Assembly: GCA_033439255.1 (NCBI GenBank)
Contig: CM065887.1
Span: forward strand, 1,674,001-1,738,000
DNA from: Hericium rajendrae
Lineage: Eukaryota; Basidiomycota; Agaricomycetes; Russulales; Hericiaceae
DNA length: 64,000 bases
Direction: 5' to 3'
This document shows, piece by piece, positions 36,789 to 59,025 of the stretch. Position numbers and translations under genes: made by a program. Below the pieces are notes generated by a model. That model was not told where the DNA came from and ran no database searches. It saw only the letters and a list, made by a program, of their open reading frames with translations. Every line of letters starts with the position of its first letter. The first letter of the stretch is position 1.

Positions 36789-37323
36789 TGTAACGGGACG
36801 TCCGAAGGTCGGGCCGGCCGGACCGCGAGACGTGTCGCCGATTGAGGAAGGAGTCTTCGCTAAGCAACCGGGAAGTTGCGAAGCGGAGATCGAACCACGT
36901 AGACAGACCATATGTATGTACAAGCAAATAAGAGACGACTTACTTCTTGCATCATCCATCGCCTTAGACGTGCTTCATCTTCTTCTTCTTCCTTTTCTTC
37001 TCTCTGCTTCCTCCTCGTCTCTTTTCTCGAAGGAAGGCTTCTAGTGAGTCTTCCGTGGGCCGACTCCCTATTTCCTTCCAGTTGTCGACTCGAAGGGTTT
37101 CCTCCTCGAGTCGGTAGCTTGGTCCAGCTAACGCCTGACACGTGTAGGCTTCCAGCGACGGCTCGTCCCTCGCCAGCCAGCCGCGCCTCACACTCGTTGC
37201 CCGCTCCTGTCGAAAGGGTTCTCCCTTCGACAGCGAACTTCCTTGTCCTCCAGCTCGATCGTGAACCACTCGTCAGCTCTCCACGCGGAGGTGTCCCCGA
37301 CACGTAGCGTTCCTAGCGTTACA
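36789..37323 (+). repeat. chromovirus 5' LTR
   Basis: 535 bp from TGTAACGGGACGTCC to CCTAGCGTTACA. The polypyrimidine stretch around CATCTTCTTCTTCTTCC and the sequence AAGCAAATAAGAGACG upstream are a possible promoter and initiation area. Followed by AAGTGGACAAGCAGTGG, the expected primer-binding position. Confidence 0.9.
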
Positions 37324-37373
37324 AAGTGGACAAGCAGTGGAATACCTGCCCCAGAGCCGATGCAGTCGTCCCC

Positions 37374-40121
37374 ATGGCAGAAACGTCTTCCGCCAGCGAG
37401 ACCTTTCGGTCTGCATTGACTTCCATTGCCAGAGGATCCTCCTCCTCTACCATCACTCCTAAACAACGTCCTCCCTTGCAACCTCTCTCTCAACCTCGCA
37501 GGACCGTCTCAGGCTCTCATGTTCTCCAGACCGCGAGTTCAAAGCACGCGGATGCGGCCTCCCTTCAGCGACTCACTCCAATCGACCTTAGCGGATTCCC
37601 AGCTGCATTCCTCGACGGTCCCTCCGGTCAAGCGTTCCAGCTCCTTCTCAAGTCGCCCTCTTCTGACCAATTCTGACCAACTCTCGTTGTACCAGCAGCT
37701 CATCTTCATGGCCAACAAGGAGCTCCCGTTGGATAAAATAGTGGCATTAAAGGAGGACCCGGGCGAGGACAGCCCTTGGTTTAGTCTCGATGCCAACTTC
37801 AAGTCCAGCCTTCGTCGCCTACTACGAGATGCCCAACCACTCGTAGACGCCTTTCTCCTCTGCGACGTGAACTCGGAATCCGGGAGGTCCTACGAGCTGG
37901 ACCCCAAACATCGGCTATTCAATACACTAGAGCGTGCCTCTTCTCGAATCATCATGCAGGCCACGTGGAATACATTGCGTGCTAGGTTTTCCCACGCTGT
38001 TACCCACATACACGCGAAGATAGACGAGGATTCTGAACTTACCACTTTCTACCCGAGTACTTCCCCGGTTCCTCGTTCAGAGCCGGACACTGCGGAGGCT
38101 CTTCAACTTGTGATTTCCCCAAGAGCGGTCTTGAGGACCCATCTCCAATCTCGCACTATGCAAGATCTACACATACCCACGAAGCAGGGCTCCAAAACCT
38201 TGTCTCCACTCACTAGCCTCGCCACGCTCCAGTTGCCTCCTGTGCAGCAGCTGGATCTGGACAAAGGCCTTATCATCAACCGCCGGCACTCGACCTCACA
38301 GCCGACCTCCGCGGGTAAATCTTGCGCCCTCGCCGAGTCGACCCCTCAACAACGTGGACACAAGTCTTGCTATAGCCTCGGGGGATTCGATGACCCTTCT
38401 GTCCTCCACCGGCCCCTGTCTTCCATACCGGAAGACGATGCGTCGCTCGCCTCGCCTATCAGAAGAATCTTCCCGACCAAAGAGCGCCAGCAAGCCACTA
38501 CGACGCAGCAAGTCACCGCTCGAACCCAAGAGCAGGTCGACCCGTACGAAGATCCAGGGGTATGGGTTCCCAACCCGGACTTCGAGGACGACAACCGCCG
38601 CTCCCGCAACTCAGAATAGAGTATGCAGGAGGAGATGGCGATGACAACGGCGGCGATGACGGAAGCAGCAGTCATGGCGGTTCCAGTGGAGGTTCCAGTA
38701 GAGGCACGGGACGCAGAGGATGGCGCGACATCCCTCCTCACCAAGACCCTCGACCGGACAGGAATGGCGATAGGGGCGCAGGCGAGCACAGAGGAGATCC
38801 TGGCGGAGGAGGCGGAAACGGCGGAGGCGGGGGCGGAGGCGGAGACGGCGGAGGAGGCCGCATTCCGGGAGCAAGAGGGGATGGTGTTCCTCCCCAAGCT
38901 CCCCAGAACCGGGTTAACGAACCTCGTATGAAGCTAGAAATCAAACGGGAAGACCTACCTGTGTGGGATGGTAACAAAGAGACCGCCATTGATTTCTTCT
39001 TCAAGATCTCCACCATCGCTGAGACGGGTGACCGCCTACCTTATGAGATCCCTCGCCTTCTTCCTCTCACCTTTCCCCCCGACTCGACTATAGCGGGATG
39101 GTATAGGCTTCTCTCCGAGGCTCGAAGAATGGCCATGAGCAGTCATCTCGAAGTATTCCTGGAGAACATTCGGGAACGCTATCTGGGGGATAAATGGTCC
39201 TTCATGCAAAGAACTGTCTACGATTCGATGTTGTTCCGTCAAAAGGAACATGAAAAAGAAAAGCCAATCGACTTCATCCAGTGGAAAGCCACCTACGCCC
39301 GGATTCTCGGCCTCAGTGACGATGGTGGTCCCCGGGAGGTCCACATAGTCATGGGCACCTTCCCCGTATACTGGAGGACCATCATCAATGAGCGAGAGGT
39401 GCCCGATACCGCTGTCCTCCTTCTCCGACTTACCAAACGTGAGAGAGAGTTAATCCACGTATGGGAACAGAACCAATGCTTCGAACGCACGGCGGAAAGA
39501 TCCTCTAGGTCCTTCTATAGGCGTAACGCCTACGTCACCGAGGAAAAGGATCCTCAAGCCGATGCAGAACCAGGAGAGATCCGTGATCCCGTCATCGCCT
39601 CCACCTACAACACGATTCAGCAACGCACGCGCACTCGCCCTCCTTCCAGAGATGGATACCGCTTTCCCAAGGAGGATAACATCGTCTCCAAAGTCCGGCT
39701 CCCGCCTTCCCCTTGCAAGGTCTGCAGCAGCGCTAACCATTGGGACAAAGAGTGCCCACATTTCCAGGAGTGGGTGAAGCTGAAGGAGATGAAGCGTTCA
39801 GAATGGGCGTACTACGACAGGAATGAGCAGGATGAACACGAGTATGAATCTGTATATCAAGCTTTCTTAATCGAGAAGTCCCTTGACCTGTATGATCCGT
39901 TACTAATGACTCGTGAAGAATATGAAGAGGGTAAGCAAGTTTTCCTGTCGAGCCGCGAGCAGACTAAGGAGCGAGGAGAGGTTCCCCTTCCCCCTCCCAA
40001 GTCAGCGGCCTCAGAGACTCCAGAGATGCCCCCTTCTATTTCACCTATTATCAACATACCCCCTAGCAGGAACGCAAAACCAGGGTATGCAGCTCAGGAT
40101 GTGTCCGTCTTAGCAGTTTGA
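37374..40121 (+). mobile_element. chromovirus gag region
   Basis: Part of the fossil described at 36789. The N-terminal part starts MAETSSASETFRSALTSI. The C-terminal part has a glycine-rich stretch, a capsid-like core (DNKETAIDFFFKI, YLGDKWSFMQRTVYDSMLFR) and one zinc knuckle CKVCSSANHWDKEC (CX2CX4HX4C). Composition and position identify it as Gag. The gag region is not a single open frame. Confidence 0.8.
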
Positions 40122-40190
40122 GGGCAGATCGGAGGCCGTCACACTCCGAGTACTGACGTCCGACTCGACTCGTGTGCGGACGTCACCCTC

Positions 40191-43100
40191 ATGTCCTCAG
40201 AATTCTACCATTCTCTCCCACAACTGCCTAAACTCCGTCAAGGCTTGCGCATCCGTCTCTCCCAGTTGACGGTTGAAGGTGGCGCAGAAGCCGAAGGCTT
40301 CGTCCGTATCCCTATTTTCCTTCCGTCCAAAGACGGACCCACTCTTCGTATCATAGTTGAGGCTTATGTCGTGCCCCACATGACCGTCCCTATCTTGCTG
40401 GGAGAAGACTTTCAGCAAAATTACAAAATGTCGGTCGACCGCAATATCTCTGAAGGCACGACTGTGTCTTTCAAGAACTGTCCGTATGACCTCCAAGCAG
40501 TCTCAGTCAAGCATTACCGCACACCGCAGGTCCAACGTAGCCTCTTCGGAGTTCAGTCCTTCCTCAGGGCAAAGGCGCACAGTCGCAGCAAGACTCAGCG
40601 TCGAAGACGTCTCCAGCGGGCCCGTCTCTACGAAAGGGAAATCCGCGCAGCACAGGACCACAGAATTATGCCCGAAACAGTGCGTAACATTCGGATTTTG
40701 GGACAATTCCTGGACGAGAGGGAATGGCTTGTTCAGAGATCGCTGTTGTCGTCAGGCAAGGACGATTTCTTCATTACGCCTAATACGTTATTCTCGGCTC
40801 GCAACCCCATTATACCAGTTACGAACCACTCGACACGGCCGCGCTACATCAGAAAGGGGGATATTGTCAGTACTGTTGCGGATCCCACATCCTTCTTTGA
40901 CGCGCCCGACAACCTACGTGAATTGGAGCAGATGATCACCAAATCAGCTCAAATAGCCCAACTGATTAAGAACCTTGCGGAACCAGAGTCCGCGGGCCAA
41001 TCCTTCGAAGGGAATCCTCCTCGAGATACACCCGCGGAAGCTCCTCAGGTTTCAACCGATCCTCCCATCCAGGACCAGCAGCAGACCTCCGAAGGGATTC
41101 CTCCTCGGATTCCGCTGGCGCAGGGAGAAGAGTCCCCACAGGCTTCACCTATGGGACCCAAAACGGCTGAGCTACCAGACCCCACATACTATCCCTCGGA
41201 CAGGCTTCGTGAGCTCTTGGATGTGGGCAGCCTGCCGGACAGGCTTCAGGACTCAGCCTGGGCCATGCTAGAGAACCATATTAAAGCCTTCGGATTCGAC
41301 GGACGGCTAGGGCACCACCCAGCCAAAGCGCACATCAGAACAGATCCAGATCATCCTCCTATATCCGTCCCCATGTACGGCTCGTCCCCACGCAAACGCG
41401 AAGTAATCGAAGCCCAAGTTCGACAGTGGTTCGAACAAGATGTCATCGAGCTGTCACGCAGTCCATGGAGCGCCCCGGTGGTCATAGCATACCGCAACGG
41501 CAAAGCGCGCTTCTGCGTAGACTATAGAAAACTCAATGCCGTTACAGTCCCGGACGAATTCCCTATCCCCAGGCAATCGGAAATACTCGGTTCACTCACA
41601 GGCGCGCAAGTACTATCATCCTTGGACGCCCTCTCAGGCTTCACCCAGTTGGAGATGGACCCTCAGGATATAGAGAAAACTGCATTCCGTACACACCTGG
41701 GTCATTTCCAATTCAAACATATGCCATTCGGCCTCTGAAATGGCCCCGCCATTTTCCAGCGCGTCATGCAATCCATCTTAGCTCCTTTTCTTTGGTTATT
41801 CTGCCTAGTCTACATCGACGATATCGTCGTTTTCTCCCAATCGTACGAGGAGCATATTGAACATTTGGACAAAGTCCTGCATGCGGTCGAAGACGCGGGT
41901 ATAACGCTGTCGCCCTCCAAATGCCATCTTTTCTATCCTTCCATCATCCTTCTGGGCCACAAAGTCTCTCGCCTAGGCCTCTCCACACATAAGAAGAAAG
42001 TACGAATCATCGATCAATTGGAGATCCCGCACTCCATCACGCAGCTTCAGACCTTTCTGGGCATGGCGGTCTACTTTTCTGCCTTTATACCTTACTATGC
42101 GGACCGCGCACGCCCGTTGTTTGAACTCACTCGCAAAGGCAAGACATGGACCTGGCTCAGGGACCAACAAGAGGCCTTTGATAGCATTAAGGCAGCACTC
42201 CAACAAGCCCCGGTTCTAGGACACCCCATACAAGGTAAACCATACCGCCTGTATACTGACGCTTCTGTCGCTGCTTTAGGATGTGCTCTACAACAAGTCC
42301 AACTTATCGCCGTCAAGGACTTAGAAGGTACTAACGCTTACAAGAAACTCAAACAAGCATTCAAGGCAGGGTTCCCTCCGCCTAAGTTTGTAGTTCCCAT
42401 GGACAAAGAATTCAACGATTTCGAACACCCGAAGGAATGGTCCCCCGTCTTCGAAGCAACCCTCATCCCAGTCGAAAAGGTTATCGCATACTGGTCACGC
42501 ACGTTCAAAGCAGCGGAATTGAATTATTCAGTAACAGAGAAGGAGGCCCTTGCCGCGAAGGAAGGACTCGTCAAGTTCCAACCATTCTTGGAAGGGGAAC
42601 AGATCCTCCTCGTCATGGACCACTCAGCCCTTCAATGGGCTAAGACCTACGAGCATACGAACTGCCGTCTCGCAGCTTGGGGCACGGTTTTCTCTGCCTA
42701 CAAGCCGGAACTACAGATCATTCACCGCCCAGGTCGCGTCCATTCTAACGTGGATCCCTTTTCCCGCCTCCCTCTGGAACCCCCGGCGTACATCTCTCCA
42801 GCCATGGACAACAGCCCCAGTTTGTTCACTGATACAGTCGCCGCTGCCCACGCAGAAGCTCTTGACCGGCAACGCCCAGCCGAAGCCTTCATCGCACTCT
42901 CGATGGAAGACTGCCTGGAGACTTCCTCAGTCTTTATAACGACCCGATCGAAGGCCCGACAGGAAGCCAAGCTGCAGGAGTTGCCCACTCTAGATAGCCC
43001 CACCCCAGCCCCAGCTGTTACAGCCCGATCAGATGCTACGCCGGTTTTAAAGACAACCTGCTCGTTCCCGCTGATCAGCCTGCCGGACAATTTCTTGCGA

Positions 43101-44578
43101 GAGTTTCATGAGGCATACGTTAAGGACCCCGCCTTTAAGGCTAAGTGGCTCTCCCCACCCTCACCATTCATAGACCACCAGCCGGGCCAAAGGTTCTTTA
43201 AAGATGAACGCGCCCTCCTGTTCTTTGAGGATGCTAATCAAAGCCTCCATCTGTGCATACCGCGTCAACTCCAACCACGGTTCCTAGCTCTCGCACATGA
43301 GTCTGCAGCGGAAACAGCTCACGCAGGTGCCGAGAAACTGCGGGACTTCTTGGCTCGAAAGCTTTACTGGCCGCGCATGAACCGCGACATCGAGCGCTAT
43401 TGCGCTTCGTGCGACGTCTGCCAGAAAATCAAATCTAAGAATTTCAAGAAATATGGGCTACTCATACCCAACCCTATTCCCAATCACCCCTTCCAGTCCA
43501 TCTCCATGGACTTGATCGTGGGCTTACCCATGTCCCTCGGGTTCAACGCCGTCTTCGTCGTCATCTGCCGTCTATCTAAATATGTACAGTTCATCCCCAC
43601 CACATCCAGCTTATCAGCAGCTGACTTTGCCAAGCTTTTTGTCGACAAAGTCGTCTGCCGCTTCGGCCTCCCAGACTCGATTATCTCAGACCGGGACCCT
43701 CGATGGACGCACGATTTTTGAAAACGGTTATGGAACGATTGGGTATTAAAATGAACCTCTCTTCATCACACCATCCTCAACATGATGGTCAGACGGAAGT
43801 GACCAACAAAGCTCTTGAAACTGCCCTTCGTGCGTACGTCGCGGAAGACCGCACGACATGGGCTGATTGGCTCCCCCTCCTGGAGTTCGCTCACAATGCC
43901 ACCGTATCAGCTTCGACAGGGTACTCACCCGCCTTCCTCCTCTACGGATTCCAACCAAACGACGTCATGGACGTGCTCATTCCTATGGACCAGCGTCGCA
44001 TTTCCCGACATGCCGCGTCAGGCGACTTCCTTCTGTCGATGACGGCTCACCGCACAGCCGCTCGGGACACGATTGCCCTTGCGCAGCACAGCCAAGCTCA
44101 GCAGTTCAATAAAGGGCGCTGAGAGCTAACTTTCAAACCTGACGACTTAGTCCTGGTCAATCCGCACAGCCTGGAATGGAAAGAATCTAAAGGCGAAGGC
44201 GCGAAGCTCGTCCAGTGCCTCATTGGCCCATTCGAAGTCCAGCAATGCATTAACGACAACGTCTATCGTCTGCGCATGGGGGACAACTATCCAGGATCCA
44301 CTGTCTTCAACGTCCAACACCTGCAACCTTATGTTGCTTCACCCCTGGACTTCGGCGAGCGAACTACGCTAGAAGACACCCGCCACGATCGTCCTCCCTC
44401 GGAGGAGTTCGAAGTTGAAAAGATAGTGGCTCACCGGTGCAACGCCCACACAGGTAACCTCGAATTTCTCGTTCGATGGTCCGGGTATTCCCCCCTGTAC
44501 GACATGTGGCTATCCAGCCGTGATCTACGCAACGCGCCCATTGAGCTCTTCTCTTACTGTAGAGCTCATGGCCTTTGA
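40191..44578 (+). mobile_element. chromovirus pol region (PR-RT-RH-IN-chromodomain)
   Basis: Part of the same fossil. Domain order: retropepsin-like protease (VEAYVVPHMTVPILLGEDF), reverse transcriptase (FCVDYRKLNAVT and LVYIDDIVVFSQS carrying the catalytic YIDD), RNase H (YRLYTDASVAALGCALQQ), the integrase HHCC zinc domain (HAGAEKLRDFLARKLYWPRM then CASCDVCQKIK), the integrase core (DLIVGLPMSLGFNAVFVVIC, SSHHPQHDGQTEV) and a chromodomain (VEKIVAHRCN then LEFLVRWSGYSPLYDMW). The chromodomain places it among the chromoviruses, which target chromatin through that module. The region is interrupted in a few places. Confidence 0.9.
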
Positions 44579-44787
44579 CGGCCCGGGCGGCCTGCCCGAC
44601 GTGCTTCGGAGCTTCGCCACAACTGTACAGTTTATGTAGCGGAGTCTAAATGTACATAGAGCCACATCTCGCTATCTATAGCTCCCATCTATCTTCTTTC
44701 CCAGTCAGACTGTCATGAAGGGCTTTCCCTCACAACGTGTCCTTTCTTTTCTCTCTTCCCCACATGTCTACCCACTCCATCTCTCGC
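44579..44787. other. chromovirus sequence after the chromodomain
   Basis: About 210 bp between the end of the chromodomain and the insertion point of the small LTR element. It has no protein motif. It resumes after the insertion, at 47909. Confidence 0.5.
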
Positions 44788-44791
44788 ACGT

Positions 44792-44963
44792 TGGAGTGGG
44801 GAGACTAGGTCTCCCACCCTCCAGAGGTTGGGCCAGCAGCGGTGGTTAGCCAAGGGCTTAGTCAGCATAGCCCATGTCTGTAGCATGTCACAGTAGGTAG
44901 CCTCATCACAGCATTCATCTGCATTCCTTCGGGGCATAGCTAGAGTCCCCTGGGCCCACTCCA
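44792..44963 (+). repeat. LTR 1 of the small LTR element
   Basis: 172 bp, TGGAGTGGGGAGACTAGG to CCTGGGCCCACTCCA. Its outer ends are themselves inverted (TGGAGTGGG/CCCACTCCA). One A/G difference from LTR 2 (CCAAGGG versus CCGAGGG), a CpG transition. Confidence 0.9.
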
Positions 44964-45255
44964 CCTGGTGATGAGAGTGTGAGTTCGACATACGCAGCTC
45001 TGCCCTCATTTTGCTGTCTTTTTTCATCCTTTTTCGAGCTTTCGTCGTCTCTTGTCGCTACTCGCACGCTCGTGTCGTGTCATACACTCGTCGTTCTCAG
45101 CTGCGCGGTCCCCAGTGCTCTCTTGGTGATTTTTTTTGTTGCTCTCAGGTGCTCCTCAGTGCTCTCCAGTGTCCTCAAGCCTTGTTATTTCGTGCCTACC
45201 AACGAACACCCCAACTCGTTCGAACTTCGAATCGACCGGCCGCGAATTACCCGAT

Positions 45256-47790
45256 ATGGGCAAGAAGAAGCGCGTTTCCACAGCTGCTTGGAGAGCAGCA
45301 GCAGCAACATCACTCCCCCTGCCCACCACCACGAGCCTCGCGACCCCGCTCGTCGCCACTATCGCATCCGCAGATCCGCTAGGCCCAAACGCCGCGAACG
45401 AGCCACCCGTGGCGCTTACACAGCAACCAAACGACTCGCACGCGCGTACCGCGTGTCCCGCACACCCAGCGCCATCTATCGCGCTACATACGACCTCCGG
45501 GAGCCCAAACGCCACACCCACGCCACGCAACACCAGCCCGGCACCATTCACGACCGAACGCGAACCCGACGGCAGCCTAACGCCCGCCACAGCGAAACCG
45601 CGAGAACCGCGCAGCGTGCAAACGCACCCCGCTCCCGCCACCATCCCTCGTGTGCCAAACGCGCATACCACGACCCCCCACACCTCACGCACGACGCCCA
45701 ACCGCCCCGCATGCCCTCACACCACGGAGAACGACCCGCAGGACGAACTTGGGCCGAGCAGGGATAAGATGCGGACCGCGAGCGACGCAAGCGAGGGAGG
45801 CCCACAGCTGGTACGCACCCCCGCCTCTCCCATACCACACACCCGTGCCGCGATGCCACACGATGTGCCTACCTCGCCCCGCCTCGGCACACATCCCCGC
45901 GCGCCCGAAAACGAGCCCAAGGAGCACCCGGGAGTCCGCACGGACAACACGGCCGCTGCGACTGTGTACCAGGGCCCCAAATCCATCTCTCCGACGTCCT
46001 TTGCGTCACCCAACAAAGTCTCCGCACCCGCGCATAGCGTCGCAAGACCGCCGACGCCCGGATTTGAACCGGGAGAGCCTCACATGGCCGCCGCGTACGC
46101 ATCACCCGAGGATTCCGCGCCCCCGCACGTCGACTTCATCGCCCGCGCACTCCACGACGAGGTCACGGTGATCACGCTTCGAAAAGGACACGCCGCGGGT
46201 TTGAAAGAGGGCCGGAATGCAGGATTTCGGGAGGGTCTTGAGGCTGGGAAGAGGGCAGGGACGGTAGCAGACAGAGAGCGAGGGTTTCAGGAGGGAAAGG
46301 TGGCCGGATTGAAGGAAGGATGCCATCAGCGTCGATCTGAATCCCTTGCAGATCCCGCGGACGAACTGCGCGATGCGCATGGCGCGGATGCGACCCCCGC
46401 ATCCAGTATCTCGGACGTCGACGCCATAGATGGTCGGCTGCTGCAACAGATCCGCCGTGAAGCCTACAGCCGCGGGTACGCGAATGGCGGCGATGATGCT
46501 TGCGAGGATTTTCAGGCCGCCCTTGACCAGAAACGGCTGGACGGTTACGTGGCCGGCTGCGAAGAGGAGTACCGAACCTGGATGGACAAGACGGTTGCAG
46601 ACCGGTCACAACTGGATCTGCTGAAGTTTTGGGAGGGCTTCAAAGCGGCTCAGCAGGTGGCTGGTGCATCGAGCATACTAACATGTGAATGGGCAGATGC
46701 CCATACCCAAACGGATGCGCCGATTGCTCCCCTACCACACCGCATGCTCTCACAGTTCCATCCTGACTTGTCGCACGAGAGGAAGGCAGGGAGAACAGAG
46801 GGTCGAGATGCGGGCTACCTGGATGGTCTGGAAATAGGGAGAAAGATGGGCTTGATGGAGGGTCGAGAGCGCGGGTTTGCAGACGGCAAGTCCGCTGGGG
46901 TACAGGCAGGGCGCGTACTCGAACGCGCCGAGGTACGTCGCATCATGCGCCCCTCCGTTCACGTCCAGATGGACGACCGACCCGTCCGCACGTACGTCAA
47001 CACCGCCATCAGGACCTCACCGACTGCGCACACCGACACCGCCATGCAGACGTTACCGCTCTATGCGGCTGCCATGCCGTTCATCGAGGATCCCGACCCC
47101 GCCCTGCTGGATCCCACGCATCTCAAGGAGATCGTGGTGACAGCGCTGTACGACGGCCACACTGCGGGCTTGAAAGAAGGGCGGCATGTTGGTTTGCAGG
47201 AAGGCATAAAGGTTGGGTGCGAGCGCACTCGCGCTGAGGCATGTCGCATCATGCGCACCTCTCGTCAAGTCCAGACAGATGACCCACCCGCTCCGGTTCA
47301 CATTCACACTGCAGTCGCACCCGCACCGTTCTCGTGGGCTGACGATGCTGATTCCCTCCCAATCCGGCCTCCTCCGCCTCTATGTTCAGCACCTCTGCGT
47401 GACTTCTCCATCTTGCGGTCCAACTCGGTGACCCAGCCCTTTGGGTCTATACAACGGCGAGTTCAACGTTCTCAGCGACACAGTACTCATGCACCACAGT
47501 TCCGTCGATACCGGTCACCACCGTCTGCATCATTGTCTTGGCGCTCATCAATCCGACCTGCACATCCCGTTCATTCGATGCAGCAGCATGCTTCTGACCT
47601 TGAGTGGGCAACAGACCCTCGTCTTTCAGAGCTGTCTCATGTCTTGCAGGGCCTTGGCTGGGTTCACTCCTCATTTTCATCAGGTCAGGTTTTGGAGGCA
47701 ACGCGGACGTTGCCATGTTGGAGGGGGGCACATGGAGTGGGGAGACTAGGTCTCCCACCCTCCAGAGGTTGGGCCAGCAGCGGTGGTTAG
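45256..47790 (+). CDS. element ORF with Yae1-like glycine-every-fourth blocks
   Basis: An 844-residue ORF from ATG 45256 (MGKKKRVSTAAWRAAAATS). The frame is also open upstream but lacks an ATG. Residues 1-300 are proline/threonine/alanine-rich and look disordered. Three blocks then show glycine every fourth residue: about 311-356 (AAGLKEGRNAGFREGLEAG), about 506-552 (KAGRTEGRDAGYLDGLEIG) and about 632-656 (AGLKEGRHVGLQEGIKVG); a weaker one lies at about 400-440. Blocks two and three are each followed by RIMR-S--VQ-DD, so the unit was duplicated. The pattern resembles the deca-GX3 motif of Yae1/Lto1, adaptors in cytosolic iron-sulfur protein assembly, and glycine-repeat regions of FliH-like proteins. 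That is pattern resemblance only. The last 19 codons run into LTR 2. No nuclease, polymerase or zinc knuckle is visible. It may act in packaging or as a scaffold, or be a captured host fragment. Confidence 0.6.
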   Translation: MGKKKRVSTAAWRAAAATSLPLPTTTSLATPLVATIASADPLGPNAANEPPVALTQQPNDSHARTACPAHPAPSIALHTTSGSPNATPTPRNTSPAPFTTEREPDGSLTPATAKPREPRSVQTHPAPATIPRVPNAHTTTPHTSRTTPNRPACPHTTENDPQDELGPSRDKMRTASDASEGGPQLVRTPASPIPHTRAAMPHDVPTSPRLGTHPRAPENEPKEHPGVRTDNTAAATVYQGPKSISPTSFASPNKVSAPAHSVARPPTPGFEPGEPHMAAAYASPEDSAPPHVDFIARALHDEVTVITLRKGHAAGLKEGRNAGFREGLEAGKRAGTVADRERGFQEGKVAGLKEGCHQRRSESLADPADELRDAHGADATPASSISDVDAIDGRLLQQIRREAYSRGYANGGDDACEDFQAALDQKRLDGYVAGCEEEYRTWMDKTVADRSQLDLLKFWEGFKAAQQVAGASSILTCEWADAHTQTDAPIAPLPHRMLSQFHPDLSHERKAGRTEGRDAGYLDGLEIGRKMGLMEGRERGFADGKSAGVQAGRVLERAEVRRIMRPSVHVQMDDRPVRTYVNTAIRTSPTAHTDTAMQTLPLYAAAMPFIEDPDPALLDPTHLKEIVVTALYDGHTAGLKEGRHVGLQEGIKVGCERTRAEACRIMRTSRQVQTDDPPAPVHIHTAVAPAPFSWADDADSLPIRPPPPLCSAPLRDFSILRSNSVTQPFGSIQRRVQRSQRHSTHAPQFRRYRSPPSASLSWRSSIRPAHPVHSMQQHASDLEWATDPRLSELSHVLQGLGWVHSSFSSGQVLEATRTLPCWRGAHGVGRLGLPPSRGWASSGG

Positions 47791-47904
47791 CCGAGGGCTT
47801 AGTCAGCATAGCCCATGTCTGTAGCATGTCACAGTAGGTAGCCTCATCACAGCATTCATCTGCATTCCTTCGGGGCATAGCTAGAGTCCCCTGGGCCCAC
47901 TCCA
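47733..47904 (+). repeat. LTR 2 of the small LTR element
   Basis: 172 bp, the near-identical partner of 44792-44963. The stop codon of the element ORF falls inside it. Confidence 0.9.
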
Positions 47905-47908
47905 ACGT

Positions 47909-49004
47909 GCATTGGCGAAACCGCCTGGGTTCGGATCTGGACAGACCGCCCTCCCCCAGCCTCTTTCCCTGCCCTGGACGGCCCCAACCCTACGTTCAGC
48001 TCAGCGTCTGGACTCTTCCATCCTTGGGACTGGGTCAAAGACCCCGACTGGGCCGACTTCAACACGCCGTGGGAGCCGTTCATCCCTTCTGCCCCCCCAG
48101 CCAGCCTCATCTTCACATCTGACATGAACTGGGCATATCTTTCACATTCGCACGAGGGCGTTGTGCGCTGGGATACCATCGTCAACAAGTACTACGTCCC
48201 CGGGGACATTACTGGTTCGTATGCGTGCGCTAAGACCTGGCTGGAGAGCCATCTCGTCACCCTTCGCCAGCTGTGCAACATCACCATCCCTCCCCCACCG
48301 CCCCTTCGTTCCGCAGTGGCATTCAGCGCCCTTCGGCAGGATTCCACCGAGGCGCTGGAGGTGGAGGTTTGGCGATACCGCCGTGACCTTTTGGACTGGT
48401 TCGGGTACTTCCAATGGGCATTACTGAATTATCATCCAGAATGGCCTACCTTACCTACCTTCCAAGCGCACCACACATTCATGGACTTCACCACTCGATA
48501 TCTCTACCGCGCTCCCCCTCGAGGCGTCTCTATCAGAACGGCGGCTTACCCTTCCTGGCCCGAGCCATGGCGTCAGGCTTTCCAACGCTGGCTCGCCCTG
48601 GACGTCCCTGTCAATTACCCCTGGAATGCCGCCTTTGCCGAAGATCGCTGCTTTCTGGACCTTCGCCCGTCTTCTTACCTGCCTTCCTGGTGTCGCATCG
48701 ATTGCACGCTGCCCAAGATGCAACGAATCCTCGCCGACGACCTTGATGTGACCTCAGGACTGCGCTCTGTCACGAATGAAGAATCCAAGACATGGAACAA
48801 CCTCCTCCACTATCGTGAGTACGCGAACGTGGACGATTATATCAACATCCGTGTTCACTATCGGGCCGCCCCTATCAGCCGAGCCAACCCCTTCGACGAC
48901 GACGACGATGATGATGAGTTCCCCGAACCGAAAGGGCGACACCAGTTTTGCTTCACGACCCTTCAGTCTTTGCTGTGGGACTCGCCCGCCATGCACCAAT
49001 GGGA
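47909..49004 (+). mobile_element. extra coding region of the chromovirus, part 1
   Basis: Lies between the chromodomain and the 3' LTR. The open text includes NTPWEPFIPSAPPASLIF, VVRWDTIVNKYYVPGDITG, VWRYRRDLLDWFGYFQWALL and an acidic run before EFPEPKGRHQFCF. I know of no domain match. It ends in the left repeat of the inverted-repeat element at about 49005. It is either an additional ORF belonging to this chromovirus lineage or another inserted sequence. Fossil state: partial. Confidence 0.5.
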
Positions 49005-52000
49005 GGTGTCCCAGTCACTGAAATACATTATATAAGGCAACTTGCCTAAATCGTATTACAAAAACCCGGCAGTTGCTGCCCGGGGCCTTGCCATGCACAT
49101 TATAATTCACGCCACTTAAGCCGCATTATAATGCGGCACTGCGGCACCTGGGATAGCCCAGGGGCCACGAAAAACATATGGCATTGCATAAAAAAACATA
49201 TCAGCCGAGATCGTAAGGATCTCGGCTGCCGTCGCTACTGCTCATTACCGCCACGCGCGCTCGTTGCTCTCGGCTATGGGCATGCCGACATTCTCACATA
49301 CCTGCGCTCGCCGGCGCTTCCCTCGCGCTCGCCGGCGCTTCTCCGTGCGCTCGCCGGCGCCTATCGTCCCGCCCGTTCCCGCCGCCCACTGCGCTCGCGC
49401 GTACCGTTCCTGCTCCCGCACCGCGGCTACGCACGCATGCACGCACGAGCTGCGCGCTACTCGCCGTATGCTGGCTGCAAAGCGTGCGCGCCACCGTGCG
49501 ATCGGGGTATCGGCGCGGGCGCTGCCCGCCCGCTTGCCGCCGGCGCGCGCTCCGCCCTGCACGCGCCGTCCACTGCCTGGCCGCGCATCCGCCGCGCACC
49601 GCGCTGGCCGCACATGGGCACAGCGCGCGGCTACGCGTGGGTGCTCGATTGCCATTGGGCACGGCGCCGGCGCGCGGGCATCGGTGCAGGCATCGGTGCG
49701 GGGGCCTGCTGCTGGCGCATGGGCATCGGTGCGCGGGCTTCCCGCTGGCGCGCGCGGGGCACAGGGTTGGGATGCGCAGGCACGGGGACACGGGGCACGG
49801 GGTTGGGATGCGCGATCATAGGTGGGGCACGCGGGCGGGATGCTGGAGGGTGTGGGCGGGGTATTGGGGCGCGCGGGCGGGGCTGGAGCACGTGCGCACG
49901 GACCGGGAGGCACGGTGCTGGGATGCGTGCGCACGGGGCTGGGACGCGTGCGCACGGGGCTGGGACATGCGCGCACGGAGCTGGGACACACGCGCGGGCG
50001 CCGGAGGATGTGGGCACAGAGTTGGTGTTGGATGCCTGCGGTGGAGGGTGTCTTGAGGATCGTTTGCGTCCGCGTGTCGTTGTTACCCGATGGGACGTGC
50101 GTGATAGTGGGCCGACGCACACGCGAACGCGAATGCATCGGCGTGAACGTGGCGTGGTGGGGGTGGGGATGGGATGGGGACAGGTTGGCCTCGTGCGGCA
50201 TGCGCGCACGCCTCCCGAGGATTTTGATGGCGCGCGGTTGTGAGCACAGGATCTTGCATGCTGGCGAGTGCCCCCTCATGGCGCGGAAAGAGATCGACGT
50301 GCATTTGCAAGCGCGGTGGTGGGGCCGAGATGGGGGCCGTGGCGCGAACGTGCGGTTGCGAGGGCACGTGTGGGGTTGTCAAGCGGGCGGTGTGTCGCAC
50401 TGCACAAGTGCGCGAATGCGCAGGCGACGCTGGACGCAGGTTGACGAGCGCGGGGGAGGGGAATGTGCGGACGGGGGAGGGGAATGTGCGGACGGGGGCG
50501 GATGTGGTCTGGCTGCGTGCGATGCCACGTCAGCGCGTTGGCGGGCTGCAATAGGAAGATTTCGTTAGTAAACCGAGCGAATACGAGAAAGGATAGAAAA
50601 ACTTACGAGTTTGTGGGCTACTGAGCCCTACAGCATCCCCGCTTGACGGGAGGAGGAGGAAGAGGAAGAGAGGAGGCCACGAGCCTTGTGGCACCGATCG
50701 GCAATTGCCGAACAGGGCACCGAACGAGGCTGGCCGACATTCGAACACGATTTGCCAGGCGTAGAAATTTTATTAAACTCTACAAATAATAGAGTAACTG
50801 TAAATACATTTGAATAATGTATATACGAAGTTTGGTATGAATTGAATGAACTGAAAGTGCCCTGTGCACGACACACTGATAAGCACGTCTAAAATGGACG
50901 GCGCTTGTCAATACTGTCATACGCGTCGAGCTCGAATCAACGTCTCGAGCACGCCGGACATCCGATTCGAGTCGCGATTTCCTAGCACATCTTCCTCCTG
51001 CCATCTATCGGCCTATTATAATGTATTGGGGTGTACTATAGCTATGTAATGCGACTTTATTAGGTCTTTCCATGGCCCAGATCTATAGGATCTAGGTAAG
51101 ATTGATGTTTTTCGGTTGTTTCAGGCCAGATTTTACGAGTTTTTCGAGTCTCGAGATCTCAAACCTTCATTAAAATATTTGTACTTTCGGAAATATATGA
51201 TCTATAGCTTTTGAAAACGTTTCGCGTAACTCGTTTGTCTAATTTCGAAGGACTGAAGCCTGCACAACCTGAACTATGCATTAGGGTTACCGAATATTAC
51301 AGTATTATTGCCTTGCTGACTCTGATATTACGAATGATCGCTCAAGCTTTCTGTTATCTATTCTAAGTTGCTATAGGTACGTATCTACTATTCAATTTCT
51401 GTCTTGTGCAGTCCAGAAACCTCCCGAGACTCGACTCCTCCTCCTCGCTCGGGCTTCTCGGGCTGCTGCCGCCGCTCGGCGATTTCCGAGCCGCGCCACA
51501 GCTGGTGCGCGGCTCGTCCTTGTCCTCTCCCTCTGCACCCTCCTCCCTTTCCTGCCCACCCTCCTCCCTCTTCGCGTTCATGCGCACTTTCGCGCTCTTC
51601 GCGCACCTTCGTGCTCTTCGCACGCCTCACCTCGCTCTCCGCTCGCCCTCCTCCTCTGGCATGTCCGCCGCGCGTCCGCCGCGCTCCGTGCCTCTCGACC
51701 ATGCCCTCCACGGCCCACCATAGCCGTCCACCCATCTCCACACACGCCGAACACGCGTAGAAGCGCGTATCAAACGCCCCGGATGCGTGTATCCCGGCAC
51801 GACAAGATGGACGTGCGCCCGACACCCGCGCTTGTGCGGCGCCAGCACCCACATCCACCACAACACCCGATGCGCGTGGCCGTGGCCTCTACGCATTGCG
51901 CGTCGCGCACCTGGGGCCCTCCACACTCCTCAAGCGTTGCTCGATGCTCGCGACGGTCCGCAACACCCGCGCACGACGTGCAACACCCCGGCATCGGCAC

Positions 52001-52707
52001 GCACAGTGCAGCAATGGCGCACTGCCCCCCACGCACTCGCGCTTGGGCCCCAGCACCCCCGCGGAACGCCAGCACCCACGCGATACCCAGCACCCACGCG
52101 GAATGCCCCAATGACGGCGTGGGGTGCGCAGTAACGGCGCACAGGTCCCAGCAACCGCGCGCAGGCGTAGCACCACGCCAGCAATGCAGCAACGACGACG
52201 ACATAAGCGCCTGTGGTGCTGATGACGTGCGTCGCGGCAACGATGGCAGGGAGCGAGCGACGGCGGCGGTAGCGGTGACGGGGAGTGAGCGACGGCGGTG
52301 GGAGGCGGGCACAGGCACGTAGCTGAGGGTGGGAGGCACACGGGTGCATAGCCGTGGCGGAGAGCAAGCGGCGGCGGCGGGGAGCGAGCGGGGACGAGGA
52401 GCGGGCCCAGGCGTGTAGCCGAGGGCGGGATGTGCGAAGCGAGCACGTAGCCGAGGGCGGGCGGGGCGGGAGGCGGTGAGCGTGTAGCCGAGGTGGGAAG
52501 CGCGCAGGGCGGTGGACGGTGCCGAGCGAGTAGGCGCGCTAAGCGCGCGGCAGTGTGTAGTGTACGGCCCGGTAAGCGGCCCCGACCTACATTATAATAC
52601 GAGTGAATTATAATGTGTGCTGCGAGTTGCTGGCCAGCAACTGCTGGGTTTTTTGTAATACACTTTAGGCAATTTGCTGGTACACAATATAATTTCATAG
52701 CTGGGAC
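49005..52707. mobile_element. GC-rich 3.7-kb inverted-repeat element, copy A
   Basis: The left end (about 49008-49090, with GGCAACTTGCCTAAATCGTA and TTACAAAAACCCGGCAGTTG) is an imperfect inverted copy of the right end (about 52590-52707, with TTTTTTGTAATACACTTTAG, GGCAATTTGC and TTTCATAGCTGGGACTGG). The arms are about 110 bp. The inside is very GC- and CpG-rich and carries no transposase; the long open frames on both strands come from repetitive GC-rich text. Minisatellites occur at 49301-49352 (CGCTCGCCGGCGCTTC) and 49905-49995 (GCGCACGGGGCTGGGACGC). It is non-autonomous. A decayed relative (copy B) at 57640-58946 matches its right third. No exact target duplication was found. Confidence 0.7.
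50570..51380. other. less GC-rich segment inside the inverted-repeat element
   Basis: No coding domain. The composition drops to near even GC and the text changes character (TTTATTAAACTCTACAAATAATAG, TTTCAGGCCAGATTTTACGAG). It is absent from copy B, so it could be a separate insertion or ancestral sequence lost in copy B. A short MDGACQYCHTRRARIN reading at 50894 has a C-x2-C-like look but no support. Confidence 0.35.
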
Positions 52708-52752
52708 TGGTGCCAATGGCGCATCCGACAGCCTCATCCTCCAACCGCAGCG

Positions 52753-54258
52753 ATGCCTCGCCCGAACACGCCAGCTCAGCCCGATGTGAACTCATCGGGC
52801 CCAGCCTCAGCGTCGACCACGGTTCCTCCTACACCCGTCTCCATCGGCGCAGCGCTTCCGGATCCCCCTCCGCCTCAGCCTACAGCCTCCGCAGCCCTGT
52901 CTCAGCCCACAGCTCCTGCCACCCCGCCGCAGCCCTCAAACCCCGCCATCTCAACAGCCACTGCAGCTTCACCCTCTGCAGACGCAGATGACGTCTCCCT
53001 GGGGAGTGCAGACGACATCGCTACGTCCTTCCCGGCAGGCCCGGCAGCCGAAGGGTACTCCCTCGGACAAGCCGACCTCGACCAGGACGAAGTTCAGCCC
53101 GAGCCCGAAGGGTTTCCCCTCGGGACTCAGGTCGCCTCCACGTCCGCAGTACAGCTCGGAGGGTCTTCCCACGAGCTGGACTCGGATGCGCCTCTCCCTC
53201 AGGCCTCGCAACAAGATGAGCCTGTCTCCGACCAGGACGTAGAGATGACCGCCGCGGACAGCATTGTCCTCGACCCCCCACAAACCTTCTCAGCATTCTG
53301 GGCGACGGTCACGGCCAACGACGACCTCCTTGCCACCGCTCACAAAGTCGCGCCGGGTCTTTTCTTCGGCATCGCGTGGGAGTTCCTATCCGAGATTACG
53401 GTCTCCATTCCTCCCCTCATGGAAGCTAGGCTCATCCAAGCCCTAGAACGGAACCCATCCCACTCTGTCCTTGACCTCATCAAGCTCATGCTTCAGCTAG
53501 GCATGCGCTTCCATGTCGCATGGTCGCCTGAATGGGGAGCATCGTGGACCGCTTCCCATCTTCGAGGAACGCAGCTACCCCTCCTGACCTATCTCGCGGA
53601 GGCCCCCCGCCCTCTGGGACCCGCCTCCATCCCCTCTCATGAGCTTTGCGCCAGATACATCAAACGCGCGGAAGAAATCTGTCGCCGCACTTGCAATGCC
53701 CGCCTGCTTCGTTATGGGGGCCTCATATGGTGCATCATCATGCAGTTCGGAGGTGCCAATTTGGCAGCGGACGTCCTCAGTGGCCCCGCAGCCACGTACG
53801 TCAACAATGATTGGTTCTTCACGGGCGTGGACGGCAGCCATTGCGACAACCCAATCGCATGGCAAGATGACCCGGTGGTCACAGAAATCCTCAGTACTAG
53901 TCCGTACAATGCGGCACCCACTCTGTGGCCAAACCCAGACTCCTGGGAATGCGGCATGACCTGGTCCGGTCGCTGGAACGCTCGCGCAGAGCAATGGTTC
54001 ACATGACGCTGGAGCGACATCATCGTCCACATTGCCAAGCCCCACACGCCAAAGAACTGGCGTACTGAGTTGCGCAGACATAATGGTGGTGTCCGCAAGG
54101 ACCTTAATATGCGCATGGAGCTGCCCGCACGATTGCCTCAGATGCGTACGGCTGCCCTGCCTCGACTCGCCAACTTGCCCTTCACACAGCAAGGCTGCCT
54201 CGCCCTTTTCTGAGGCTACGCAACGTGCCAGTTTCTTGAGCGAACACTGGGGGGGCTC
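52753..54258 (+). mobile_element. extra coding region of the chromovirus, part 2
   Basis: Begins MPRPNTPAQPDVNSSGPASA, a proline/alanine/serine-rich start, then an acidic middle (DQDVEMTAADSIVLD) and a more globular part with TFSAFWATVTANDDLL, FLSEITVSIPPLMEARLIQA, RYIKRAEEICRRTCNARLLR and YGGLIWCIIMQFGGANLAA. It ends close to the polypurine tract of the chromovirus. No domain recognised. Its place next to the 3' LTR suggests an accessory ORF of the element. Fossil, interrupted. Confidence 0.5.
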
Positions 54259-55369
54259 TGTAACGGGACGTCCGAAGGTCGGGCCGGCCGGACCGCGAGA
54301 CACGTCGCCGATTGAGGAAGGAGTCTTCGCTAAGCAACCGGGAAGTTGCGAAGTGGAGATCGAACCATGTAGACAGACCATATGTATGTACAAGCGAATA
54401 AGAGACGACTTACTTCTTGCATCATCCATCGCCTTAGACGTGCTTCATCTTCTTCTTCTTCCTTTTCTTCTCTCTGCTTCCTCCTCGTCTCTTTTCTCGA
54501 AGGAAGGCTTCTAGTGAGTCTTCCATGGGCCGACTCCCTATTTCCTTCCGGTTGTCGACTCGAAGGGTTTCCTCCTCGAGTCGGTAGCTTGGTCCAGCTA
54601 ACGCCTGACACGTGTAGGCTTCCAGCGACGGCTCGTCCCTCGCCAGCCAGCTGCACCTCACACTCGTCGCCTGCTCCTTGTCATGAATTGGTCCTTCATG
54701 ACTTAGAAGTGTATATATACCGTGTGCCAGATGTCAAGCCAAGCTTGACATTGCACCCTTTTGGCGTAGGCGTTACATTGTGGCACACCAATCTGAGTCA
54801 GTCCTTACATAATGTCAAGCTTCCAGTGGTTGAGGGTTCGAATCCCGGTTGAGACAGTAATTGTTGATAGACTGAGAAACACACTTGGGTATGAGGTCAC
54901 TGCTTGGCTTACCTAAGACTTCTCAGGAGGCGACAACTTGCTTGAGACCGGGTCCTCTGGAATTCCTCCAAAGCCATCAAGGTCCAAGCCCATCGGGTAA
55001 CCCTTGGGGCCAGGGTATAATATACCTTCCACTCTGGGGCGAGTGTCCTAAAAGAGGGGATGATGTCATGAATTGGTCCTTCATGACTTAGAAGTGTATA
55101 TATACCGTGTGCCAGATGTCAAGCCAAGCTTGACATTGCGCCCTTTTGGTGTAGGCGTTACATTGTGGCACACCAATCTGAGTCAGTCCTTACATACCTT
55201 TTGGCATAGGCATTACATTGTGGCACACCAATCTGAGTCAGTCCTTACACTCCTGTCGAAAGGGTTCTCCCTTCGACAGCGAACTTCCTTGTCCTCCGGC
55301 TCGATCGTGAACCACTCGTCAGCTCTCCACGCGGAGGTGTCCCCGACACGTAGCGTTCCTAGCGTTACA
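54259..55369 (+). repeat. chromovirus 3' LTR (split by a TRIM)
   Basis: Runs from TGTAACGGGACGTCC to CCTAGCGTTACA, with the TRIM at 54679-55249 inside. Without the insertion it is 535 bp, the same as the 5' LTR. Preceded by CACTGGGGGGGCTC, the polypurine tract. Confidence 0.9.
54679..55249 (+). mobile_element. 571-bp TRIM (miniature LTR element)
   Basis: LTRs start TGTCATGAATTGGTCCTTCA and end CTGAGTCAGTCCTTACA: 54679-54809 (131 bp) and 55064-55249. The second one carries a 55-bp tandem duplication of its own 3' end (55195-55249). The exact 5-bp duplication CTCCT flanks it (54674-54678 and 55250-55254). The 254-bp interior has a tRNA T-arm-like GGTTCGAATCC at 54835-54845 and a polypurine tract AAAAGAGGGGATGA before the second LTR. 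It has no coding capacity. It is the youngest layer visible in the nested stack. Confidence 0.9.
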
Positions 55370-57639: not shown

Positions 57640-58946
57640 CTCGGCAAAGTCTGAGCTGCATCACAGCTCAAGCGCTCATGCTCTCTCTCTCCACCTGCAC
57701 TCCTACCTGTCCTGCTCACCCTCCCCCCTTCTCATGCTCATGCGCACTTCTGCACTCTTCGTGTGTCTCACCTCTCTTTACTTGCCCTCCTCATCTCGCA
57801 CATCAATTGCACATTCACTGCCCTCCACGCCCCTCAACCACACCCTTCACGGCCCGCCACAGCTGTCCACCCCACTCCACACACGTTGGACACATGCAAA
57901 AGCATGCACAACATGCCCCTGGACGTGTACGCACCTGCGTACAATGCTGTGGATGCACGCCCAACACCTGTGCTTGTGTGTGTGCAGCGCCAGCACCCAC
58001 GCACACAACGACACCTGGTGCGTGTGCACACGGCCCATAGGCATCATGCCTCTCATGCCTGAGGCCCTCGATGCCCACGACACTCAACACCCACAACTGT
58101 CGCTCGATACTCACGATGGGTCCCGGCGTGATGCCCAGCATCCCGGCACCAGCATGCACAGCGCAGCAACAGCATGCTGCCTCCTTCCTCCCACCCCTCG
58201 TGCTCAGGCCCCAGCACCCACATCAAATGCCAGCACCCTTGCATGCGCCAGCAGGCCTGTGTGATGCCAGCAGATGGCATGATGCCAGCAGCGACGCGGA
58301 ACACCCCAGCCACAGCGTGCAGTAACTGCGCATGAACGCCAATAGTGGCACACCATGCATGGCACCCACAAGTGACGCAGCAGTGCTGATGGCAGCGTGC
58401 GACATGGCAACAGTGGTGGGGAACGAGGGGTGGCAGGAGGAGGCTCACGAAGCTGAGGGGCCGAGGGTGGGTGCGTAGTGGAGGGCGGGAAGCTCGCACC
58501 ATTGTGTAGCTGAGTGCTGGAGGTGCACGGACACGTAGCCACAGCGGAGAGCAAGTGGCGATGGTGGGGAGCGAGCAGTGACGGCAGGGAGCGAGCGGCG
58601 GCGAGGAGTGGGCCCAGGTGCGTAGCCAAGGACAGGATGTGTGAGTGAGCACGTAGCTGAGCGCTCGCGTAGCCAAGAGTGGGAGGCATTGAGTGCGTAG
58701 CCGAGGCGGCAAGCATGCAGGGCAGCAGACGGTGCCGAGGCAAAGCGGGCACAGTGCTGAGCAAGTAGGCGCACTAAGCGTGCAGCAGTGAGTAGTGTAT
58801 GGCCTGGTAAGTGGCCCCAACGTACATTATAATATGAGTGAATTATAATATGCATGGCAAGGCCCCGGGCAGCAACTGCTGGGGTTTTTGTAATACGATT
58901 TAGACAAGTTGCTGGTGCACAATATAATTTCATAGCTGGGACTGGT
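57640..58946. mobile_element. GC-rich inverted-repeat element, copy B (truncated, CpG-decayed)
   Basis: Aligns by eye with 51490-52707 of copy A (for example TCTCTCCACCTGCACTCC near its start and AATTTCATAGCTGGGACTGG at its end), but with most CpG sites turned to TpG or CpA. The left end with its inverted arm is missing. It follows the gag of the older Ty3 element without a clear boundary (57600-57650), and on its right it abuts sequence like 47580-47665 of the small LTR element (58947-59025). Confidence 0.65.
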
Positions 58947-59025
58947 GCAGCAGTGTGCTTCTGACCTTGCATGGGCAACAGATCCTTGTCTTTTGGAGCT
59001 GTCTTGTGTCTTGCAGGGCCTTGGG
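58947..59025 (+). repeat. fragment related to the small LTR element
   Basis: TGCTTCTGACCTTGCATGGG and TTGTGTCTTGCAGGGCCTTG match 47585-47665 of the LTR element with several transitions. An older remnant of the same family, so that family has more than one copy in this genome. Confidence 0.65.

Follow-up and report, generated by a model that had tools for sequence, protein, structure and literature searches.

A small LTR retrotransposon of Hericium rajendrae that encodes its own glycine-repeat protein

Why should a retrotransposon that has no pol gene keep a long open reading frame (ORF)? Non-autonomous long terminal repeat (LTR) elements are expected to lose their coding capacity, since proteins can come in trans. 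Within the 64,000-nucleotide stretch of the H. rajendrae genome analysed here (the window; positions 1,674,001–1,738,000 of contig CM065887.1), an element at 44792–47904 encodes a single protein with repeated blocks in which glycine recurs at every fourth residue (GX3 blocks), and it belongs to a family of related copies. Because selection has kept this protein, the findings suggest that the element needs its own protein while borrowing its enzymes from a larger relative. The best overall explanation, in which we place moderate confidence, is a helper-dependent LTR retrotransposon whose own protein aids packaging or assembly.

The element, its family and its reading frame

The locus is an intact, recently inserted, non-autonomous LTR element. 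Its two plus-strand LTRs (44792–44963 and 47733–47904) are 172 bp each and, when compared, 99.4% identical, which amounts to one difference, and the 5′ copy has the ends TGGAGTGGG...CCCACTCCA. Comparison of the flanks identified the target site duplication ACGT, of the NCGN type, on both sides (44788–44791 on the left and 47905–47908 on the right, no strand assigned). At 44966–44979 lies a primer binding site (PBS) that complements the CCA-bearing 3′ terminus of tRNA-Leu, and at 47720–47732 the polypurine tract (PPT) region GGAGGGGGGCACA, both on the plus strand. The features of an LTR retrotransposon, that is, direct terminal repeats, TG...CA ends, a target duplication, a PBS and a PPT, were all found. 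Furthermore, Yae1_N was the sole Pfam family above its cut-off in the ORF and the strand held no other long frame, so the element has no pol. An initial annotation made from the letters of the window had described the single-base LTR difference, the primer site, the polypurine tract, the target duplication and the lack of pol, and all of these were borne out.

In the same genome, the primer sequence TGGTGATGAGAGTG pairs with the 3′ ends, with CCA added, of three tRNA genes: one for tRNA-Leu(AAG), which has a 28-bp intron, and two that resemble it. ARAGORN calls the latter two tRNA-Ile, with introns of 49–50 bases; contrary to the tool, we read them as tRNA-Leu, judging from their class II shape. 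In some subfamilies, the primer match reaches the T arm, at 21 of 22 bases by eye.

Does this copy have relatives? We searched the 46.8-Mb genome (19 contigs) with the LTR, the window ORF and a second family ORF, and found a family of at least about 61–67 distinct loci. The count was made on hand-listed matches and varies with the gap allowed, and it is a lower bound because the ORF searches scored only the best 54 of 144 and the best 59 of 122 candidates. From the extracted loci, 36 segments were assembled, 30 of which match the ORF, 23 of these with both LTRs. In the two-LTR copies, the LTR identity is 96.3–100% (median 99.4%, with 7 of the 23 identical), and the family proteins are 29–67% identical to that of the window copy; the family is diverse, with many young copies. 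The initial annotation had seen a family in one further fragment of the window, at 58946–59024 on the plus strand. This is indeed an older relative, consisting of a C-terminal coding stretch only and 87% identical to 47579–47657, but the family is far larger than one fragment implied.

Pairing 81 primer-site matches (77 exact and 4 near) with 56 PPT–LTR matches within 16 kb gave 47 PBS–PPT pairs, 36 at 1.99–3.01 kb and 11 longer, and in 32 of the 36 short elements a frame runs without a stop for at least 550 aa (hand-entered values). At C1:337820, we read a truncated 5′ end that lies within another element's frame. A search of viral contigs for relatives returned 21 pattern matches, none of which was confirmed.

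The ORF lies at 45256–47790 on the plus strand. It was annotated as a single frame of 844 residues, and it is open over that length, but the final 41 codons are read-through across the PPT into the 3′ LTR, beyond the usual LGWV end, and the conserved protein stops near residue 803. The same read-through occurs in three other members; 16 of the 22 family proteins end within a few residues past LGWV, and 2 lack that end. The protein starts with a basic N-terminus (MGKKKR or similar in most members), after which comes a long, variable stretch rich in Pro, Thr and Ala, and each protein has one to several GX3 blocks. In the window copy, these blocks lie at 46186–46320, 46789–46911 (11 in-register glycines) and 47155–47217, and a RIMR-VQ-DD segment occurs first at 46901–46984 and again at 47207–47290 (74%), all on the plus strand. 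Both the glycine periodicity and the duplicated segment had been noted from the letters alone and proved to be real: in the window ORF, up to 11 glycines follow each other at a spacing of four, versus a maximum of 5 in 1000 shuffles, and the longest such run is 4–13 across the 22 members, versus a shuffled maximum of 6. The C-terminal domain, FSWADD...RDFSILRS...RR..RS...W..DPRLSEL..VL..LGWV (47329–47664, plus strand), is conserved, and its near-invariant columns include W694, D716, F717, P728, R735, W784, D787, E792 and LGWV.

Has selection kept this protein? We compared the ratio of non-synonymous to synonymous change (dN/dS) in pairs of copies whose proportion of synonymous differences (pS) was 0.05–0.55, which left 23 of 231 pairs for the longest GX3 block, 41 of 190 for the C-terminal domain and 82 of 120 for the first 60 codons; the pairs share ancestry, and their counts are not independent. 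The median dN/dS was 0.22 in the longest GX3 block, with values below 1 in 23 of 23 usable pairs, and 0.26 in the C-terminal domain, with values below 1 in 41 of 41. In the closest pairs (14 for the GX3 block and 21 for the C-terminal domain), the out-of-frame ratios were 1.2–1.6 versus 0.24–0.27 in frame. For the first, second and third codon positions, the differences in these pairs add up to 84/68/226 (GX3 block) and 195/212/522 (C-terminal domain), and not to the even spread, with loss of the ORF, that the initial annotation had named as speaking against it when proposing this comparison. By these substitution patterns, the GX3 blocks and the C-terminal domain are under purifying selection, and the claim that a non-autonomous family retains a long ORF is upheld. 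Furthermore, two close pairs of copies (C16:940134 and C12:1040697, 98.7% identical; C6:3158825 and C7:397891, 98.5%) contain three ORF breaks in all, each private to one copy; these cases, few as they are, therefore give no sign of a broken copy having moved. Selection, across diverged copies, on a non-Pol protein whose sole recognised domain is GX3 implies that the protein does something for the very copy from which it is made.

One could also suppose that the element has decayed and that chance or a GC-rich composition keeps the frame open, as the sequence is GC-rich and has other open frames on both strands. However, the longest same-strand open frame is 867 codons, versus a maximum of 421 in 500 first-order Markov simulations of the internal region, and dN/dS is 0.2–0.3 in frame versus more than 1 off frame. 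Both comparisons reject a chance ORF, the probability of which is practically nil.

Origin of the GX3 blocks and motifs

Where might the GX3 blocks come from? Their pattern had been likened to that of Yae1 and Lto1. The Pfam family Yae1_N (PF09811) scores 45.1 bits on the whole window protein, against a curated cut-off of 27.5, and 48.5 bits on a 70-residue piece that contains the second block, versus 43.5 and 42.3 bits on the host frames that we read as Yae1 and Lto1. It is the only Pfam family in the members, 21 of the 22 having it at E 0.1 or better (best 2.2e-12), with none outside the repeat; a profile search of solved structures gave a single match, at E 0.035. When the 70-residue piece was shuffled, three full shuffles gave no match, eight glycine-keeping shuffles reached at most 20.1 bits, and six that kept both glycines and register reached at most 31.7 bits, one of the six passing the cut-off. 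The similarity to Yae1_N exceeds composition, yet in part it reflects an amphipathic register.

The same GX3 blocks are also matched by NCBIfam FliH models, three at 64–73 bits and a fourth at 29, although these scores are not strictly comparable with those of Yae1_N because the model lengths differ. The FliH equivalog cut-offs (180–293 bits) are not reached, the best model giving 73 of 293 with only part of the profile covered. Since FliH models match as well, the GX3 motif is not a specific pointer to Yae1. The likeness to Yae1 and Lto1 stands insofar as it passes the Yae1_N cut-off beyond composition and glycine position, but the FliH models share it.

Could the element have captured a host Yae1 or Lto1 gene, whose product would work in, or interfere with, Fe–S cluster delivery to Rli1? 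The breadth of the Yae1_N matches, at scores that equal those of the host frames, would fit, and several members beat nearly all glycine-fixed shuffles against host Yae1, about as host Yae1 does against Lto1. As this control is itself weak (the host Yae1-versus-Lto1 score was reached by 5 of 200 shuffles), the shuffle test is compatible with common descent. On the other hand, over the 22 members, the mean z in this low-power test is 1.98 to host Yae1 and 0.75 to host Lto1, the FliH models match the same blocks, Pfam finds nothing beyond the repeat, and none of the 22 proteins terminates in W or F, unlike Lto1, the conserved W sitting inside LGWV. The host Yae1- and Lto1-read frames are located elsewhere in the genome, outside the element. 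Descent of the blocks from a host gene, which the initial annotation had raised, is conceivable; a captured gene that still acts in, or disturbs, Fe–S delivery we consider very improbable. A further Yae1_N match, at C4:1093653–1093760 (33.2 bits, in a 145-aa frame), lies outside the element loci and is separate from the Yae1- and Lto1-read frames.

Could the protein instead act on the host? The duplicated RIMR-VQ-DD segment is, by its motif, part of a wider VQTD/TQT-type set, with 37 occurrences in the 22 proteins versus 3.8 on average and at most 12 after shuffling, for a pattern picked after the sequences had been viewed. As many as eight occur in one protein (e.g., L043 3996–6296, minus strand). 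TQT motifs, and some of the VQT type, are ligands of the dynein light chain LC8, a hub protein, as described for ASCIZ in the accessible part of one paper (PMC5963919), and the likeness of the family motifs to LC8 sites is a lead only. A protein that relieves silencing, or guides particles through such LC8-like motifs, might protect or move the copy that encodes it, and the copies do sit at CpG sites; repeats of the mushroom M. oreades are described as CpG-methylated in the accessible part of another paper (PMC9674265). However, the core motif is absent from 10 of the 22 proteins, the copies are related so that motif counts are not independent, and the Pfam matches of the 22 members include no known anti-silencing domain. 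We regard such a role at the host or its chromatin as unlikely.

The helper and the role of the protein

Integration of the family has left a very clear signature. A 4-bp NCGN duplication flanks 22 of the 22 copies with both flanks readable, 21 of them exactly; the table covers 22 of the 23 two-LTR copies, as one 3′ LTR ran off its locus. CpG makes up 6.9% of the dinucleotides in the window and the extracted segments, and the chance of finding NCGN at 22 of 22 is about 10^-25.6. Five solo LTRs agree with NCGN, three exactly, and in the other two one of the duplicates has TG in place of CG. In the solo LTRs L047 and L048, one side of the duplication reads TG where the other still has CG, as CpG decay would give.

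Directly 5′ of the PPT lies a 7-bp hairpin, GGCAACG-CGGA-CGTTGCC (47697–47714, plus strand), that covaries across the family. By inspection, it is present in 22 of the 23 copies, 3 of them with one or two mismatches; the statistics used 20 of the 23 rows, omitting two that duplicate the hairpin of a kept row and the hairpin-less C3:1374668. In these rows, 97.1% of the cells pair, four of the seven pairs have changed on both sides (reached by 3 of 500 shuffles), and the covariation score is reached by none of 500 shuffles and by no slid version; the variety of pair types, in contrast, does not exceed that of the shuffles (433 of 500). Lying before the PPT, the hairpin may act in plus-strand priming or in packaging. 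Furthermore, a quick tree built from the C-terminal domain conflicts with one built from the N-terminal 230 residues, and the window copy is 95.9% identical to the C3:2394514 copy over the 3′ 582 bases versus 77% over the 5′ 1 kb. The copies are mosaics, which template switching between co-packaged RNAs explains well; the copies would consequently share particles.

Which element might supply the enzymes? Three PBS–PPT intervals of 6598, 6690 and 6732 bp (C3:1651062–1657660, C2:1631038–1637728 and C7:2969577–2976309), with the same primer site and PPT, have no family ORF match among the matches listed. We read 1.25 kb of the first, in which the piece L063 contains MPFGLTGAPSSF and FVDD and has its best solved-structure matches in Ty3 reverse transcriptase (RT; 4ol8, E 0.009) and Ty3 Gag-Pol (7q5b, E 0.038), and one piece upstream of it resembles the RT of a Gypsy element of the window (E 8e-6 in a two-sequence comparison). 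In the genome search with the LTR, the similarity of this candidate to the window LTR and leader is limited to 43 bases at 95%, which span the end of U5, the primer site and the beginning of the leader. Taken on these matches, the RT-bearing 6.6–6.7 kb element is a likely helper.

A genome search with RVT_1, in which the best 150 of 294 candidates were scored, added no other. Of 77 primer-site matches, 51 have the family ORF within 3.5 kb and 3 have a scored RVT_1 match at most 8 kb downstream on the same strand, about 1 being expected by chance. We rejected these three as helpers because none is family-like: one is a split-ORF locus, one lies beyond a short element's ORF and one lies beside a primer match without an LTR end. 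That the RT of the candidate helper was missed in this search is consistent with its score of 20.7 bits, versus 110.6 for the lowest match listed. RVT_2 (Copia-type RT) gave 64 matches, one of which, C12:1665499, lies by eye ~6–7 kb downstream of the primer site C12:1672235 on the same strand.

How could the element then move? Its RNA would be transcribed from its LTR and primed by tRNA-Leu, and RT and integrase would be supplied in trans by the Ty3-like element of ~7 kb that shares the primer site, PPT and LTR terminal bases, the integrase of this helper setting the NCGN target. By analogy with FliH and Yae1–Lto1, the helical GX3 blocks probably make the protein multimerise, and the basic N-terminal arm and RRARRS-type C-terminal domain probably contact the element RNA or the helper particle. 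In this way, the protein would favour its own RNA in packaging or assembly, which would be why it has been retained. The description as an element with a helper is highly probable; helper use itself and GX3 multimerisation we infer, and a packaging or assembly function of the ORF protein is a tentative assignment, a little short of an even balance.

Several observations weigh against this account. Four of the 36 paired elements have a frame below 550 aa, although one of them (C12:917342) shows a 595-aa frame in another match, and some extracted copies contain stops or frame breaks. The first 60 codons show no clear purifying selection, with a median dN/dS of 0.73 and values below 1 in 66 of 82 usable pairs, and dN exceeds dS in 7 of the 8 closest pairs listed, unlike in the remaining protein. 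A single-sequence AlphaFold2 model of 322 residues had a mean predicted local distance difference test (pLDDT) score of 43.6, which is too poor for use. As for the helper, the absence of the ORF from the 6.6–6.7 kb intervals is not firm, since only the best candidates were scored; L063 matches RVT_1 at E 3.6e-4 and 20.7 bits, below the 29.6-bit cut-off; the two pieces upstream of L063 have no Pfam match alone; and the frame is shifted near the RT start, so the copy that was read may itself be dead. Finally, the zinc knuckle CX2CX4HX4C is present in none of the 22 family proteins, and no Pfam Gag model matches any of them.

These last two negatives also count against the strongest rival, in which helper and small element share a divergent Gag, encoded here by the ORF; the small element would be a TR-GAG (terminal-repeat retrotransposon with GAG domain) from which pol has been lost, with GX3 as a local elaboration of that Gag. 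LTRs, one ORF and a pol-bearing relative match the plant TR-GAG elements as presented in the accessible part of one report (PMC8704663), and Gag varies and is not easily recognised by profiles, according to the part of a fungal survey available to us (PMC3248453). On the other hand, searches with two members list no related frame in the three 6.6–6.7 kb intervals among the best candidates scored. We consider a divergent Gag somewhat unlikely. Quite unlikely, in turn, is a Gag replaced by a new structural protein, with the GX3 blocks as the scaffold of the particle or ribonucleoprotein and with docking of host transport and of the element RNA through LC8-type motifs and basic arms; if so, a pol-less element would own its packaging and rent RT and integrase only.

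The GX3 element is itself nested in the Gypsy element of the window (36789–55369), which we take to be of the chromodomain type and which has LTRs of about 535 bp and a 5-bp duplication, GGTAT, a target other than NCGN. Because of this duplication, the window Gypsy was rejected as the helper. Its 3′ LTR is interrupted by a 571-bp insert (54679–55249) with a 133-bp repeat pair, 98.5% identical, that looks like a separate TRIM-type element.

Comparison with known systems

In the open-access literature, whose scope makes this weak evidence of absence, we found no GX3 or Yae1 protein in a retrotransposon. Fungal surveys, in the parts accessible, mention non-autonomous LTR elements and LARDs and name no such protein (PMC3248453; PMC3411680).

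How does the family compare with other elements that lack pol? It shares short LTRs and the lack of pol with TRIM and LARD elements, which are non-coding, whereas the ORF here is conserved by selection. LARDs are reported from the mushroom Laccaria bicolor in the available portion of one of these surveys (PMC3411680). The plant TR-GAG elements, as the accessible part of their description has it, likewise have LTRs, one ORF and no pol and are presumed to rely on a full-length relative (PMC8704663). The element here differs in having no recognised Gag domain, no zinc knuckle, GX3 blocks and a fungal host, and its ORF has no counterpart among the matches listed in the helper candidates. Among the Ty3/Gypsy elements, Ty3 offers the RT that is closest, of the solved structures, to the RT piece of the helper candidate, whereas the small element itself has no pol.

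The protein, on the other hand, invites comparison with three others. With Yae1 and Lto1, it has in common glycine at every fourth residue over about 40 residues (PF09811), but it is 550–930 aa long, has another C-terminal domain and no terminal tryptophan, and is encoded by a mobile element. With bacterial FliH, it shares the same GX3 register, at scores far below the equivalog cut-offs. In eukaryotes, the GX3 repeat is described, in the part of the source available, only for Yae1 and Lto1 (PMC4523923). The family would add to these a mobile source of the GX3 motif, and it offers a way to test how satellites retain genes.

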